From the NCBI GenBank assembly GCA_905477785.1, contig CAJQGR010000066.1:1-40278 (forward strand): 40,278 nucleotides of DNA, given 5' to 3'. Numbering within the stretch: position 1 is the first letter of the stretch; every line of letters starts with the position of its first letter. Both the position numbers and the translations under genes were made by a program. Shown here piece after piece: positions 3,240 to 39,548 of the stretch. The notes below the pieces were generated by a model. It saw only the letters and a program-made list of their open reading frames with translations. It did no database searches and had not been told where the DNA came from. This DNA is from an uncultured Hellea sp. (GTDB lineage Bacteria; Pseudomonadota; Alphaproteobacteria; Caulobacterales; Maricaulaceae).

Positions 3240-5099
3240 TTAAAAACTTGTTTGAAAGCCAGCATACAGTTTTCTTCCTTGCGAAGAGTAGCCAATGACC
3301 TCTTGATATTGCTCATCGAGTAAATTTTCACCGCGAAGATAAAATCTTAAATTATCGTTTACTTTATATGATCCATAAAGGCCAATTAATGTAAAAGCGT
3401 CAAGTTTCACATTTTGAAAACTTGAAAAATCCGTATCAAGTTGACTCCCATTATGGTCAAGAGACGCTGAAATTAATATGTCATCACTAGGGATGTATGT
3501 TATTGATGTACTTGCAATAAACTTAGGTCTTCGGATCTCCTCTATTTCATTTTGCTTGCTTGTTTGATAAGTTGCTGAGGATCTCACTTTTATTTTCTCT
3601 GATATATCCCAACGGACTTCTGTTTCAACACCTTGCCGAGTACTTTTGGAGCCTAAGTTAATTACAGTGGAAGTAAAGTCAGCAGCATAAACTGTAGTAA
3701 TTTCATTCTTTAGTTCTGACCTGAAGTAATCAACAGATAATTGTAGATTAGCAATTTTATGTTCATAGCCAATATTAAAGCCTAATGAGTTTTCTGGTTT
3801 AAGACTCTTATTTCCAGAAAAACCAGAAGTTGGGTAAAAACCAAATAGTTCTATTAGAGACGGGTTTTTTACACCAGAACCTATTGATGCACGCAACCTA
3901 CCGTTAAGTTCCTCTGGTTTATAACCAGCCCCTACTCTCCATGTGGTTACGTTCTTAAAATAGTCATTTATATCGTGACGGCCCGAAGCTGTTATTGTTA
4001 TAGGACCAGAAGAATGAACATAATCACCAGCAAGCGCATATGACCAAATTTCAGGCTCTGCATCCGGCTCTGTAAAATTTGGTAAGATAGAATAAGACTC
4101 GTGCTCAGCTTCCGTTAGGAATGATATTGTATTGTTTCCAAGAACTTTTTTTGCAACCCAGTTTATTCCGTGCCTCGCACCTTTTGAAAGACTTGAAAAC
4201 CCCGCTTGGGTATCTGTATCGGTTGCAACCATGTGTGAGGTTATTGCATTAGAAAACCCCGCTAAATCAAATTTAGCATCTATTCTTGCAGTATCACTTT
4301 TTACATTTGTTTTTCCAGTTGTGTTGTTGAGCCGGCCATTGAAATCGGCATCCTCGTCTATATCAGTAGTAATGTCAGAAAATCCAAATTTTGCACTCAA
4401 AGATATACCTGTAAAATTTACATTGTTTAAACCAAGGTTTATATTTTTACCTTTGGAGCCATCTTTCTCGCCATTGAGCCCTGATATATCATAGCCCTGG
4501 GATTTAAATGCTGTTCCATTCAAAGACAGAGAGGCTTTGCCAATAGGAATTATTGTGTGAATATTACCTTCATAGCTTTTTTCATTTCCAGCACTAAAAG
4601 TACCCTGTGTACTTTTAGTGACTGAATTTGTTCGGGTGGTTATATTTATGACCCCTCCAATTGCGTCCGACCCATATAATGCTGACTGCTCTCCCTTTAA
4701 AATTTCTATTCTTGTAACATCGGAGGAACGTAGACCTGCAAAATCAAATTCACCTGTTGTAGGATTATTCATTTCCACACCATCAATTAATACTAAGACA
4801 TGGTTTGCCTCAGAGCCCCTTACCCGTACTTGCGTTAAGCTGCCTTGTGGCCCTGAAGAGTTAACGGCAACTCCTGGAATAGTTCGTAGTAAATCTGAGA
4901 TGTACTGTTGTCCTCGATTAATAATCTCGGTTTCAGTTATAACTATTGCTGGAGAGGTGAGTTTATTTTTATCTATGCTCCCTAATCTTGTTCCTAAGAC
5001 TATTATATCTTCATTGTTTTTATTTAAATCTTGCTCAATTTGACCATATGCATTGTTAGATAAAAAGATCATGACACTGCTCAGTAGGTATTTTTTCAT
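3240..5099 (-). CDS. btuB: TonB-dependent outer-membrane receptor, probable vitamin B12 transporter
   Basis: An outer-membrane beta-barrel that would import cobalamin using TonB energy. From the ATG at 5099 it has a signal peptide (MKKYLLSSVMIFLSNNAYGQ) and a TonB-box-like EDIIVLGTRLG. The plug domain covers about residues 30-150, with VRVRGSEANHVLVLIDGVEM, RIEILKGEQSALYGSDAIGG and VINITTR. A long barrel follows and ends in Phe, the usual outer-membrane insertion signal. The frame is open upstream to an ATG at 5195, but that adds 32 residues before the signal peptide. I chose 5099 because the signal peptide begins there and GGAG (5110-5107) lies upstream. The cobalamin riboswitch directly in front of it is the main reason for calling it B12-specific rather than siderophore-specific. 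No btuCDF or cobalamin synthesis genes are in the window. Confidence 0.9.
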   Translation of the reverse strand: MKKYLLSSVMIFLSNNAYGQIEQDLNKNNEDIIVLGTRLGSIDKNKLTSPAIVITETEIINRGQQYISDLLRTIPGVAVNSSGPQGSLTQVRVRGSEANHVLVLIDGVEMNNPTTGEFDFAGLRSSDVTRIEILKGEQSALYGSDAIGGVINITTRTNSVTKSTQGTFSAGNEKSYEGNIHTIIPIGKASLSLNGTAFKSQGYDISGLNGEKDGSKGKNINLGLNNVNFTGISLSAKFGFSDITTDIDEDADFNGRLNNTTGKTNVKSDTARIDAKFDLAGFSNAITSHMVATDTDTQAGFSSLSKGARHGINWVAKKVLGNNTISFLTEAEHESYSILPNFTEPDAEPEIWSYALAGDYVHSSGPITITASGRHDINDYFKNVTTWRVGAGYKPEELNGRLRASIGSGVKNPSLIELFGFYPTSGFSGNKSLKPENSLGFNIGYEHKIANLQLSVDYFRSELKNEITTVYAADFTSTVINLGSKSTRQGVETEVRWDISEKIKVRSSATYQTSKQNEIEEIRRPKFIASTSITYIPSDDILISASLDHNGSQLDTDFSSFQNVKLDAFTLIGLYGSYKVNDNLRFYLRGENLLDEQYQEVIGYSSQGRKLYAGFQTSF

Positions 5100-5156
5100 T
5101 TTACGACTCCAATTACGCTGTGACAGCGATTTTAAATACAAAGGTGTCGTCATTGG

Positions 5157-5177
5157 AAAAGGCATCATCGCCTTTTT
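5157..5177 (-). terminator. Hairpin between riboswitch and btuB, possible expression platform
   Basis: Reading the minus strand, AAAAGGC pairs with GCCTTTT around a six-base loop, and the 3' arm is itself U-rich. It sits between the end of the B12 aptamer (about 5205) and the btuB start, where a transcription terminator or anti-terminator would be expected. The stem has only three G-C pairs, so it is a weak intrinsic terminator at best. A second hairpin at 5128-5116 (CGCTG/CAGCG) lies just before the ribosome site and could control translation instead. Confidence 0.35.
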
Positions 5178-5204
5178 ACCATGCACATAGGTCATTCCCG
5201 CCCT

Positions 5205-5402
5205 CGTGCGCTGGCGACTTTATTGGCAGGTCTTCTGACTTTTGGTTCAAATGTTACTTTTACGCCTTCCCGATAAATCAGTGGCACATGTAAGAGTAAC
5301 TTACCAATTACAGCTGCGGGCGCAGTTGAAGCTTTAAACTCCATTCCCATATTATCGCACAAGGCGACCAATAAATCGCACTTAAAACATAATACCTTGG
5401 TA
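5205..5402 (-). promoter_or_regulatory. Cobalamin (B12) riboswitch
   Basis: On the minus strand the leader shows the conserved order of the adenosylcobalamin-class aptamer. First comes CTGCGCCCGCAGCTGTAA (core stem and loop, about 5327-5310). Next is a small GTAAG-loop-CTTAC hairpin, then GCCACTG followed by CGGGAAGGC (5286 to about 5263). Last is the B12 box AGTCAGAAGACCTGCC at 5240-5225. High cobalamin would be expected to repress the downstream TonB receptor. Boundaries are approximate: the 3' end was set after the GTCGCC...GGGCGGG tail, and the 5' end at the CTTACC near 5402. A 71-codon frame runs through the aptamer by chance and is not a gene. Confidence 0.93.
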
Positions 5403-20568: not shown

Positions 20569-20666
20569 CCGGAAGGTTATCTTGGACAACATTCTTGTTA
20601 ACCCGGTCAGGTCGGGAACGAAGCAGCCGAATATAAGTCCTTGTTGGGTCAGGTATAGCCTTCCAC
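20569..20666 (+). ncRNA. ffs: Signal recognition particle RNA (4.5S, small bacterial type)
   Basis: The conserved apical domain is present: GGTCAGGTCGGGAACGAAGC continuing into AGCC, with a GGAA tetraloop closed by TCG/CGA and the two internal loops that bind Ffh. The ends pair: GGAAGG (20571-20576) with CCTTCC (20659-20664), so the molecule folds as one long hairpin of about 98 bases. The strand is fixed by the reading direction of the apical motif. The RNA works with Ffh and FtsY to target inner-membrane proteins. It sits between nudC and a mobA-like gene. The ends are estimated to within a few bases. Confidence 0.93.
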
Positions 20667-20719
20667 TTAATTAGCAAATTTATTGCAAAAAATGGCCTGA
20701 TAGTTATTATAGGTCATCT

Positions 20720-22272: not shown

Positions 22273-22349
22273 GGTGGGGTAGCTCAGCTGGTTAGAGCGC
22301 AGGACTCATAATCCTGAGGTCGTGAGTTCAAGTCTCACTCTCACTACCA
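22273..22349 (+). tRNA. tRNA-Met (CAT anticodon, elongator type)
   Basis: A full cloverleaf of 77 bases including an encoded CCA. The acceptor strands are GGTGGGG and TCTCACT. The D arm is GCTC/GAGC, the anticodon stem CAGGA/TCCTG with loop CTCATAA, the variable loop AGGTC, and the T arm GTGAG/CTCAC with loop TTCAAGT. The anticodon is CAT. The first pair is G-U and the body lacks the initiator signs (a mismatched C1-A72 pair and three consecutive G-C pairs next to the anticodon loop), so it is the elongator. A lysidine-modified tRNA-Ile2 is less likely from the body sequence. There are three G-U pairs in the acceptor stem. Confidence 0.95.
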
Positions 22350-36520: not shown

Positions 36521-37333
36521 ATGCTAAAATCATTGTTTCTGCCTATTATATTCCTTTTTTTACCACTAAATAATAATTTGGTGAGTAATCTGAACGGCTA
36601 TAATAAAGCCGAGGCGCAAAGCTTTAAAAACTCCTCAGTAGATAGTGATTGGGATTTAATTCTAAAACGTTACGTCATAAAAAGTGAGCCTGACGGAGTA
36701 AATTTATTTAACTATGCTGCATTGAGCAAAAGCTCGGATGATTGGGTGTTATTGAATAATTATTTAACTAGCCTTGAAGGTATTGACCCTAATCTAATGC
36801 TAAAAAATGAAGCCATAGCTTATTACGCAAACCTATATAACGCAGTTACTGTAAAGCTAATAACAGAGAATTACCCAATTAAATCCATACGTAAACTAGG
36901 CCCCTTTAATTCAGGCCCTTGGAAGCGTAAGATTATAAAATTAAATGGTGAATTAGTTAGTCTCGATGATATAGAACATAAAATACTAAGATCTAAATAT
37001 TTATCACCATATATTCATTATATGCTTAACTGCGCTTCTATAAGTTGTCCAAACCTTCAAAAAAAAGCGTGGAAAGGAGAAACTTTAAAGTCAGACCAAC
37101 AAAGAGCAGTTTCTGAATATATAAACTCTTCACGTGGAGTTGCTTTAAAGAAAGATGGGTTACAAGTCTCATCGATTTATAAATGGTTTAAAGGGGATTT
37201 TAAAAGTGACGGCGGGGTACTTGACCATATATTAAAGCATGCAAATAAAGACTTAAAAAATGCTATAAAAAAGGTCGAGAAAATTAAATCATATAATTAT
37301 GACTGGACTTTAAATGATGTGACAGTCAATTAG
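36521..37333 (+). CDS. DUF547 domain protein, exported
   Basis: A 270-residue protein with a signal peptide (MLKSLFLPIIFLFLPLNNN) and a full DUF547 domain. Marks are NLFNYAALSKSSDDW, AYYANLYNAVTVKLI, the GPW-K region, LSLDDIEHKILR-like VSLDDIEHKILRSKY, and NCASISCPNLQ with two cysteines. DUF547 has a thiol-protease/transglutaminase-like fold in my recollection, and its function is unknown. It is first of a compact three-gene run, followed after five bases by a TVP38 membrane protein and then by a flavin disulfide oxidoreductase. A 210-base gap before it (36311-36520) holds a 6-2-6 inverted repeat (AACACA-AC-TGTGTT, 36415-36428) and a weak promoter-like pair. Confidence 0.9.
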   Translation: MLKSLFLPIIFLFLPLNNNLVSNLNGYNKAEAQSFKNSSVDSDWDLILKRYVIKSEPDGVNLFNYAALSKSSDDWVLLNNYLTSLEGIDPNLMLKNEAIAYYANLYNAVTVKLITENYPIKSIRKLGPFNSGPWKRKIIKLNGELVSLDDIEHKILRSKYLSPYIHYMLNCASISCPNLQKKAWKGETLKSDQQRAVSEYINSSRGVALKKDGLQVSSIYKWFKGDFKSDGGVLDHILKHANKDLKNAIKKVEKIKSYNYDWTLNDVTVN

Positions 37334-37338
37334 ATGTC

Positions 37339-38082
37339 ATGAATAAAAGTAAAAAACAAAAGTCTTTTTTTTTTAAAATTTGGCCTATTTATATTCTGAT
37401 AATAGGATTGCTATTTGCTCTATATCAAGATTGGGACCAATATCTCACACCAAATTCACTGGGTCTATATGCGGCGGATTTAAATACTCTTGTTGAAAAT
37501 AATTTTTGGATAGCTTTTAGCGGGTTTGTTTTTATTTATATTTTTTCAACAGTATTTATGATCCCAGCAAGTGCACTAACAATCATGGGCGGGTTTTTAT
37601 TCGGAACCTTTATAGGTGTTCCTACAACTGTGATTAGTGCTACTGCAGGAGCTTGCATATTATTTTTGCTGACAAAGTTTTCTTTTAGTAGCGCCTTAGA
37701 AAATATTGCGGGACCATTTTTAAAAAAAATGGAAAGAGGATTTAATGAAAATTCTTTATCATATCTTTTTTCTCTTCGACTAATTCCGCTATTTCCTTTT
37801 GCTGTCGTGAATATTGCACCTGCTATATTAGGTGCTAGATTTAGTCACTACTTTGTATCAACATTGTTTGGAATTATTCCAGGAACTCTAGCTTATACAT
37901 TGATTGGCACAGGATTAAGGGATACTTTATTGAATGCATCTGCTAACGGTGAGTTATTAGATGTATCACTTCTCATTCAAAATGCAGGAAAAAACTTCAT
38001 ACCTGCACTTATTGCCCTTTCAATACTTGCTTTTATGCCTGTGGTTTATAAGTATTTTAAAAACAACAACAAACTAACTTAA
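37339..38082 (+). CDS. TVP38/TMEM64 (DedA-like) membrane protein
   Basis: A 247-residue inner-membrane protein of the VTT/SNARE-associated family. The signature helices are FMIPASALTIMGGFLFGTFI (re-entrant loop with the G-rich motif) and the conserved LRLIPLFPFAVVN with its Arg and prolines. FGIIPGTLAYTLIGTGL follows. Members are proposed to move or scramble lipids. The start is five bases after the DUF547 stop, and the flavoprotein starts 26 bases later. In other bacteria TVP38 proteins are sometimes fused to FAD-dependent oxidoreductases, which supports a functional link. Confidence 0.93.
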   Translation: MNKSKKQKSFFFKIWPIYILIIGLLFALYQDWDQYLTPNSLGLYAADLNTLVENNFWIAFSGFVFIYIFSTVFMIPASALTIMGGFLFGTFIGVPTTVISATAGACILFLLTKFSFSSALENIAGPFLKKMERGFNENSLSYLFSLRLIPLFPFAVVNIAPAILGARFSHYFVSTLFGIIPGTLAYTLIGTGLRDTLLNASANGELLDVSLLIQNAGKNFIPALIALSILAFMPVVYKYFKNNNKLT

Positions 38083-38108
38083 TTTAAAGAAATCTTAAAA
38101 AGAGCGGC

Positions 38109-39548
38109 ATGAATAAAAAATCATATGATGTTGATATTTGTATAATAGGCGCAGGCTCTGCGGGGCTTTCGGTTGCGTCAGGAGCTGCCCAGTTAGGCAG
38201 GTCTGTTGTTCTTTTTGAAGCAAATGAAATGGGTGGTGATTGTCTTAATTACGGCTGTATTCCTTCTAAAGCTTTGATTTCAGCAGCTAAGAAAGCACAT
38301 ATTTTTAAAAAAACAAAAGCATTTGGTGTGGAACTAAAAAAACCAAACATCAAATTCCAAAACGTAAAACAGCACGTTCATAAAGTAATTAATAGGATTG
38401 CTCCAGCAGATAGCCAGGAACGGTTTGAAGGTTTAGGTTGTACCGTAATTCGAGAGTATGCTGAGTTCATAAATCAGACTACTGTTTCTTCGCCCTCTGC
38501 GATAGTAAGAGCTAAAAGGTTTGTGATTGCATCGGGGTCTAAAGCTTCAATACCTCCTGTTTTAGGTATAGATGATATTCCATTTCTTACGAATGAGACA
38601 ATATTTAATATAGATGAATTACCTAAAAGTTTGATTGTAATTGGGGCAGGACCCATAGGCCTTGAACTCGGGCAAGCGTTTTGTCGTTTAGGTTCAAATG
38701 TTGATGTTATTGATGCTCAAAAGCCTTTGGAAAATTTGGATAAAGAGTATTCTGATATTTTAATTAGTGAATTAAAAAAAGAAGGCATTAATTTTCATTA
38801 TCCAGATAAAATAAAGGTTCTAAAAAGAAATAAATTAGGATTATCTGTAGAGTTAGAAAATGGAAAAGTTATCCAAGGTAGCCACCTATTAGTGGCTGCG
38901 GGGAGGTCCCCTAATATTACAAATCTTGGACTTGATAAGGCGAACGTTCAGTACGACCAGAGTGGAATAATAGTGTCTAAAAGTTTAAGAACTAGCAACA
39001 AACGCATATATGCTGCGGGAGATGTTACTAAAGGTATGGGAGGGCTTACTCATGCCGCTGGTTATCATGCCGGTAAACTAATTCAGAATTTCTACTTTTC
39101 TCCACCTTTCATGGGTGATTTTCTGGCAAAAGCTAATACATCATCGATGCCTGCAGTTATCTATTCTGAACCAGAATTTGCAAGTATCGGAATAACTGAA
39201 GATAAAGCAAAAGAGCTATTTTCAAAAGTTAAGTGTCTAACTTGGAATTTTGATGAAAATGATAGAGCAATATCTGAGTTTTCAACTTTAGGTGGAGTTA
39301 AAATAATAGCAAATAGTAAGGGAAAGATATTAGGGGGTTCTATTCTTGGTGAGCAGGCGGGAGAGATAATGCATTTAATCAATATGGCGATGGTTAATAA
39401 CATTAAGATTTCTGGACTTGCTAAAATTATTTCACCTTATCCAACAAGGTCTGAAGCTGTAAAAAGGGCTTCCTCAAGATTTTATACAAAAATCCTCTTT
39501 AGTAATCGCACAAAAAAAATTGCAGAACTTCTATCTAAATTTCATTAA
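38109..39548 (+). CDS. FAD/NAD(P) disulfide-oxidoreductase-like flavoprotein
   Basis: A 479-residue class I pyridine-nucleotide disulfide oxidoreductase, like mercuric reductase and dihydrolipoamide dehydrogenase. The FAD loop is IIGAGSAGLSVASGAAQLG (12-30), the redox pair Cys45 and Cys50 is in GGDCLNYGCIPSKAL, the NAD(P) loop is IVIGAGPIGLELGQAFCRLG and the second FAD motif is IYAAGDVT. The C-terminal dimer domain ends with PYPTRSEA, where lipoamide dehydrogenases have a His-Pro active-site pair, so the usual catalytic histidine is replaced by tyrosine. It therefore probably does not act on lipoamide. No mercury genes are nearby. It completes the DUF547-TVP38 cassette. Confidence 0.92.
   Translation: MNKKSYDVDICIIGAGSAGLSVASGAAQLGRSVVLFEANEMGGDCLNYGCIPSKALISAAKKAHIFKKTKAFGVELKKPNIKFQNVKQHVHKVINRIAPADSQERFEGLGCTVIREYAEFINQTTVSSPSAIVRAKRFVIASGSKASIPPVLGIDDIPFLTNETIFNIDELPKSLIVIGAGPIGLELGQAFCRLGSNVDVIDAQKPLENLDKEYSDILISELKKEGINFHYPDKIKVLKRNKLGLSVELENGKVIQGSHLLVAAGRSPNITNLGLDKANVQYDQSGIIVSKSLRTSNKRIYAAGDVTKGMGGLTHAAGYHAGKLIQNFYFSPPFMGDFLAKANTSSMPAVIYSEPEFASIGITEDKAKELFSKVKCLTWNFDENDRAISEFSTLGGVKIIANSKGKILGGSILGEQAGEIMHLINMAMVNNIKISGLAKIISPYPTRSEAVKRASSRFYTKILFSNRTKKIAELLSKFH

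Follow-up and report, generated by a model that had tools for sequence, protein, structure and literature searches.

Recurrent association of DUF547, COG0398-type DedA and flavin disulfide-oxidoreductase genes, as seen from a cassette of an uncultured Hellea sp.

The window, i.e., the whole 40,278-nucleotide stretch of DNA that was analyzed, carries near its end three intact open reading frames arranged head to tail on the plus strand, which encode a DUF547 protein, a VTT/DedA membrane protein of the COG0398 type (TVP38) and a class I flavin disulfide oxidoreductase (FLAV). The Pfam matches of all three proteins lie over the respective cut-offs; the DUF547 domain scores 70 bits against a curated cut-off of 27, and the VTT domain 77.7 bits against 33.9. 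The genes and their features are as follows.

36521-37333, plus strand: DUF547 gene, 270 amino acids, predicted to be exported (PF04784, E 2.3e-19, residues 93-201; AlphaFold2 mean pLDDT 87)
36521-36616, plus strand: signal-peptide-like stretch, cleavage guessed after A30-E31-A32 (translation read by eye)
37031-37048, plus strand: C171-x4-C176 (NCASISCP), with H166 just upstream (conservation counts in DUF547 proteins)
37339-38082, plus strand: TVP38/VTT (DedA, COG0398-type) membrane protein, 247 amino acids (PF09335, E 1.3e-21)
38109-39548, plus strand: FAD disulfide oxidoreductase FLAV, 479 amino acids (PF07992 Pyr_redox_2, E 7e-57; PF02852 Pyr_redox_dim, E 2e-24)
38241-38258, plus strand: redox cysteine pair C45-x4-C50 (GGDCLNYGC), present in all 138 clade members that cover this region
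38712-38714, plus strand: acidic D202, which closes the second strand of the NAD-binding fold and suggests NAD(H)
39438-39440, plus strand: Tyr444, replacing the catalytic His found in dihydrolipoamide dehydrogenase (LPD) and glutathione reductase (GR); Tyr in 138 of 138 clade members

The coordinates bear out the close gene order described in an earlier note on this DNA, with 5 bases between DUF547 and TVP38 and 26 bases between TVP38 and FLAV, and the residues to which it drew attention (C171 and C176 in NCASISC, C45 and C50 of the flavoprotein, Tyr444 in PYPTRSE) are all present. The cassette is flanked by a DegT-type aminotransferase gene on one side and by folD (named by eye) on the other, both on the minus strand, and rnpA-yidC-engB-argB adjoin it. 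Scanning for promoters and terminators gave a site count not above that of shuffled sequences. The window's copy is an ordinary member, and the interest lies in the module.

Read by eye, the N-terminus of the DUF547 protein is signal-peptide-like (MLKSLFLPIIFLFLPL...AEA, with QS following the guessed cleavage). C171 and C176 occur in all 67 TVP38-linked DUF547 proteins and in 79 of 85 encoded far from TVP38; for H166 the counts are 67/67 and 83/85. The cysteine pair singled out earlier is thus present but general to DUF547, not special to the cassette. Together with N104, Y106, N107, W134, E152, R157, H166, W222 and D226, the two cysteines are near-invariant irrespective of nearness to TVP38, and this set looks like a family-wide catalytic or ligand site. 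DUF547 is found from bacteria to plants, and we know of no function for it. Searching the solved-structure library with the good AlphaFold2 model gave no clear match (at best E 0.17 by Foldseek, and Z 4.9 with 7.4 Å over 133 residues by VIA-align); BFVD gave none at all, and the PDB holds no sequence relative of the protein. These searches establish neither a new nor a known fold.

TVP38 is modeled as all helical (AlphaFold2 mean pLDDT 90), and its residues R147, P150, P153, F154 and N158 are conserved in 99-100% of 138 sequences. DedA proteins of the COG0398 type are distinguished by a first re-entrant region without acids and by at most one of the two arginines of UndP flippases (Todor et al. 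2023, PMC10127716); TVP38 has no D or E in residues 66-95, conserves R147 and has Pro153 six residues further on. The protein has no PDB relative by sequence, and the best fold match, to a folate ECF transporter subunit (Z 6.2, 4.2 Å over 118 residues), is within the chance range. In natural fusions the FAD domain follows the VTT domain, so the C-terminal end of the latter should face the cytosol.

It had been proposed in the earlier note that the three proteins form a redox path across the inner membrane. Its electrons would come from NAD(P)H and reach the DUF547 cysteines by way of FLAV and then TVP38, much as in DsbD/CcdA. Cysteine pairs do lie on both sides of the membrane and are invariant in FLAV and in TVP38-linked DUF547 proteins. 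However, the 138 TVP38 sequences hold no conserved cysteine column (best 24/136), which makes a dithiol relay through TVP38 unlikely, and DUF547 proteins encoded far from TVP38 have their pair almost as often. About 15 of the 138 TVP38 sequences (among them L037, L040, L045, L046 and L054) contain an additional two-cysteine loop near the C-terminus, which is not found in the window's copy. A path through the membrane protein is consequently very unlikely, and a redox link may instead be made by a diffusible carrier.

The nearest solved structure to FLAV is a mercuric reductase (MerA; 5x1y, profile E 1.5e-109). MerA proteins share with FLAV the class I fold, the C-x4-C pair and a Tyr at the His position, where MerA reads APYLT, LPD HAHPT and the GR of the window's own genome VHPT. 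The exchange of His for Tyr reported earlier is therefore real but no peculiarity of this protein, as it is invariant in the 138 clade flavoproteins and common to MerA. LPD and GR have the fold, the FAD and NAD domains and the C-x4-C pair in common with FLAV, which differs in lacking their catalytic His-Glu pair, with Tyr444 in place of the His. Scores stay below the cut-offs for the NCBIfam MerA equivalog (330 bits against 454), LPD (334 against 409) and GR (273 against 480). A hallmark of MerA is a vicinal cysteine pair at the C-terminus; FLAV ends in ...SNRTKKIAELLSKFH without any Cys, and no mer gene lies beside the cassette. The position of D202 is occupied by E or D in 118 of 120 alpha-type proteins and by E in 14 of 18 fused proteins, a pattern shared with LPD but not with GR and MerA (R/Q in the own GR and in one MerA). 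An acid ending the second strand of the NAD fold goes along with NAD(H) use, and D202 suggests that FLAV uses NAD(H), with NADH rather than NADPH as the donor.

FLAV belongs instead to the TVP38/FAD-oxidoreductase clade: the Tyr-type flavoprotein gene adjoins a VTT gene, as in 77 of 80 relatives, and a quick tree agrees. In this tree a starred branch (99) separates the window's FLAV and the fusions from the LPDs and GR of the own genome and a MerA, which form long branches whose exact placement was not used. Within it, the window's copy clusters with those of Hellea (Robiginitomaculaceae) and of further genomes from its family (99, starred) and hence looks vertically inherited. The window's genome (1.83 Mb, 97% complete) holds one DUF547, four VTT and one FLAV gene. 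As two LPD-like genes and a true GR gene are present as well, FLAV is not the housekeeping enzyme. A role as substitute for glutathione reductase was rejected, since GR is present.

According to the earlier note, the cassette would be coincidental if the three families proved to be rarely adjacent in other genomes; they are often adjacent. In a class sample of 142 genomes, 43 DUF547 genes were readable with their surroundings, 10 of them with TVP38 and 8 with FLAV on the same strand within 2.5 kb. By the same measure, a phylum sample (398 genomes of Pseudomonadota, overlapping slightly with the former) gave 28/56 with TVP38 and 26/56 with FLAV, and both partners lie near DUF547 in 14 of 29 families. 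Chance would account for about 0.6% (<1%), by arithmetic from the four VTT genes in the 1.83-Mb genome. The association of the three families is not coincidental. At least six gene orders are found.

DUF547-TVP38-FLAV: the window
TVP38-FLAV-DUF547: L055
FLAV-TVP38-DUF547: L115, L123, L124, L129
TVP38-FLAV-kinase-DUF547: L130, L154
[TVP38/FLAV fusion]-DUF547: many gammaproteobacterial loci
DUF547-[fusion]: L246, L283

This variety is the stronger evidence because many alphaproteobacterial loci share the yidC neighborhood. Vertical inheritance of a gene order beside yidC, with no joint function, would be consistent with the rnpA/yidC surroundings of most alphaproteobacterial loci, which are hence not independent of each other; but it leaves the other orders, the fusions and the contexts in other classes and phyla unaccounted for, as well as one family of the window's taxonomic order in which the trio sits together with neither yidC nor the kinase beside it (L260, L336-L339). 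Recurrence outside the yidC locus largely refutes coincidence, which we consider extremely improbable. Among 80 named loci found via FLAV, TVP38 adjoins in 77, a histidine kinase, usually placed after FLAV, in 60 and DUF547 in 19, which indicates a TVP38-FLAV core with DUF547 as a common third member. In Sinorhizobium meliloti, TVP38, FLAV and the kinase are found next to yidC.

Fusions of TVP38 with the flavoprotein, to which the earlier note had alluded, are indeed seen in Gammaproteobacteria, with DUF547 after them. They are named bifunctional TVP38/TMEM64 family protein/FAD-dependent oxidoreductase by NCBI and match the window's proteins in their two domains and the order of these, in the cysteine pair and in the Tyr; the window differs in having two separate genes, DUF547 upstream rather than downstream, and no ArsS or ABC genes. 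The gene fusion COG0398-PF07992-PF02852 is already known (Todor et al. 2023, PMC10127716), and this DedA survey is the only literature we found on the function of the TVP38-FLAV pair. In the literature searched we found no paper naming DUF547 and TVP38 together, and no description of DUF547 as a recurrent partner or of a recurrence in arsenosugar-type clusters.

The histidine kinase, whose HATPase domain is joined to a sensor part with no Pfam match, could be the real partner of FLAV, with the trio as its effector or sensor. Its position next to FLAV in 60 of the 80 loci and, by coordinates, in 26 of the 35 genomes of the window's taxonomic order that hold both would agree with this, as would HK and RR genes close to TVP38-FLAV on two plasmids of cyanobacteria. 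However, in that order the kinase occurs in 53 of 60 genomes and FLAV in 40 of 60, with the kinase often alone; the window's genome lacks it, and it does not accompany the trio where the latter sits elsewhere. The link is thus partly positional, the kinase being commoner than FLAV and missing from displaced trios, and a signaling module is distinctly unlikely. The kinase as an obligatory partner is weakened by the same absences. As an orphan gene, often beside yidC, it was found in 11 of 11 other sampled members of the family and not in the window's small genome.

In Gammaproteobacteria an operon of TonB receptor, fusion, DUF547 and ABC transporter is conserved (L163, L164, L272, L273, L275 and L279), which we take to be somewhat like E. 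coli ydjXYZ-ynjABCDEF. In L163 and L164 it is followed by genes for a CDP-alcohol phosphatidyltransferase and an FA hydroxylase, as it is in Pseudoalteromonas, Catenovulum and related genomes where the contig is long enough. A CDP-alcohol phosphatidyltransferase also lies near the module in Pseudooceanicola and Paracoccus, and an FA hydroxylase in an arsenosugar-type locus described below (L341). Such neighbors would fit a lipid module, in which TVP38 would scramble or flip a lipid, FLAV would set the redox state of a lipid-linked thiol, a quinone or an unusual head group, and DUF547 would be a periplasmic lipid-modifying Cys enzyme. COG0398 DedA proteins resemble eukaryotic phospholipid scramblases and were reported to be essential in Caulobacter and Dinoroseobacter (PMC10127716). 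Nevertheless, no scramblase activity of any bacterial COG0398 protein was found in the literature consulted, and lipid genes are missing next to the window's cassette and from most alphaproteobacterial loci, so that we regard a lipid module as possible but doubtful.

Some arsenosugar clusters, with ArsS (TIGR04167) and TIGR04282/TIGR04283 glycosyltransferases, carry the module, either fused or as separate alpha-type genes. A plasmid of Acinetobacter portensis has the order arsS - fusion - DUF547 - TIGR04283 - TIGR04282, and in five genomes (G241, G244, G245, G253 and G299) ArsS is no more than about 3 kb away from the fusion and DUF547. On the Pseudanabaena galeata plasmid pPg_02 (L330, 99081-112424) the order is HK - RR - TVP38 - FLAV (annotated as 'mercuric reductase') - arsM - TVP38 - arsS. 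Within the window's taxonomic order, L341 (G563:C4:146500-158500) combines DUF547, an ArsS-like radical SAM protein, MTA phosphorylase, FLAV, TVP38, TIGR04283 (over cut-off), TIGR04282, DUF1499 and the FA hydroxylase, and L342 (G439:C16:3500-15000) has a similar gene set; that of a Roseomonas plasmid resembles L341. The radical SAM proteins of L341 and L342 score 66 and 55 bits against TIGR04167 (cut-off 300) and 80-89 bits against the Rv1681 family, and may represent another lineage of ArsS-like enzymes. Unlike these clusters, the window's cassette has no arsenosugar enzyme beside it, and its genome has no ArsS over the cut-off (best 28.7 bits against 300) and only weak ArsM matches (31% identity). 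Arsenosugar synthesis as the module's role in the window's species was rejected on account of the missing ArsS.

From the module, its conservation, its active-site residues and its genomic partners, all directly observed, we infer the NADH preference, the substrate, the direction of transport and the role of DUF547. In the cytosol, FLAV would pass electrons from NAD(H) via FAD and then the C45/C50 dithiol to a substrate that is soft, thiol-reactive or thiol-conjugated, and that is linked to the membrane or has to cross it. The VTT protein would move this substrate, as a lipid scramblase or small-molecule transporter, and DUF547 would handle it on the periplasmic side via its conserved His/Cys center. 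Organo-metalloid compounds would be the leading substrate class, with arsenicals in the best-annotated clusters; lacking ArsS, the window's species would have to use the module for something simpler, for instance detoxification or repair. Our tentative reading, possible rather than probable, is therefore one functional module of this kind around the DedA-type protein and the flavoprotein, often joined by DUF547 as an exported partner.

In favor of this reading are the recurrence of the linkage in different gene orders and unrelated surroundings, the natural TVP38-FLAV fusion with DUF547 after it, the intact trios at a site lacking both yidC and the kinase, the arsenosugar contexts, the MerA-type Tyr with a MerA as closest structure, and the GR and LPD-like genes present besides FLAV. 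Against it count the missing ArsS and weak ArsM matches of the window's genome, the half of DUF547 genes without TVP38 nearby, the TonB receptor context, which holds no arsenic gene, and the presence of FLAV within 1.5 kb in only 3 of 30 sampled ArsS loci, of which 28 come from one family (1/28 with FLAV) and both others have FLAV. No context is universal; judged from residues and gene contexts, our best guess is a membrane-coupled and probably NADH-dependent dithiol enzyme system, whose substrate would be soft and thiol-reactive, either a metalloid or a lipid-linked compound. The module ties two families without assigned function, bacterial COG0398 DedA and DUF547, to a defined redox enzyme, and its recurrence in arsenosugar-type clusters provides a testable hypothesis for both. 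A more far-reaching version, which we think unlikely, would make the module an unrecognized envelope system for metalloid or soft-element lipids or conjugates, with DUF547 as a new periplasmic Cys/His enzyme acting with a COG0398 transporter and a dedicated NADH flavoenzyme.

Elsewhere, the window carries three further features.

5208-5386, minus strand: cobalamin riboswitch (101 bits), upstream of a 651-amino-acid open reading frame at 3240-5195 (minus strand)
20571-20667, plus strand: small SRP RNA
22273-22346, plus strand: tRNA
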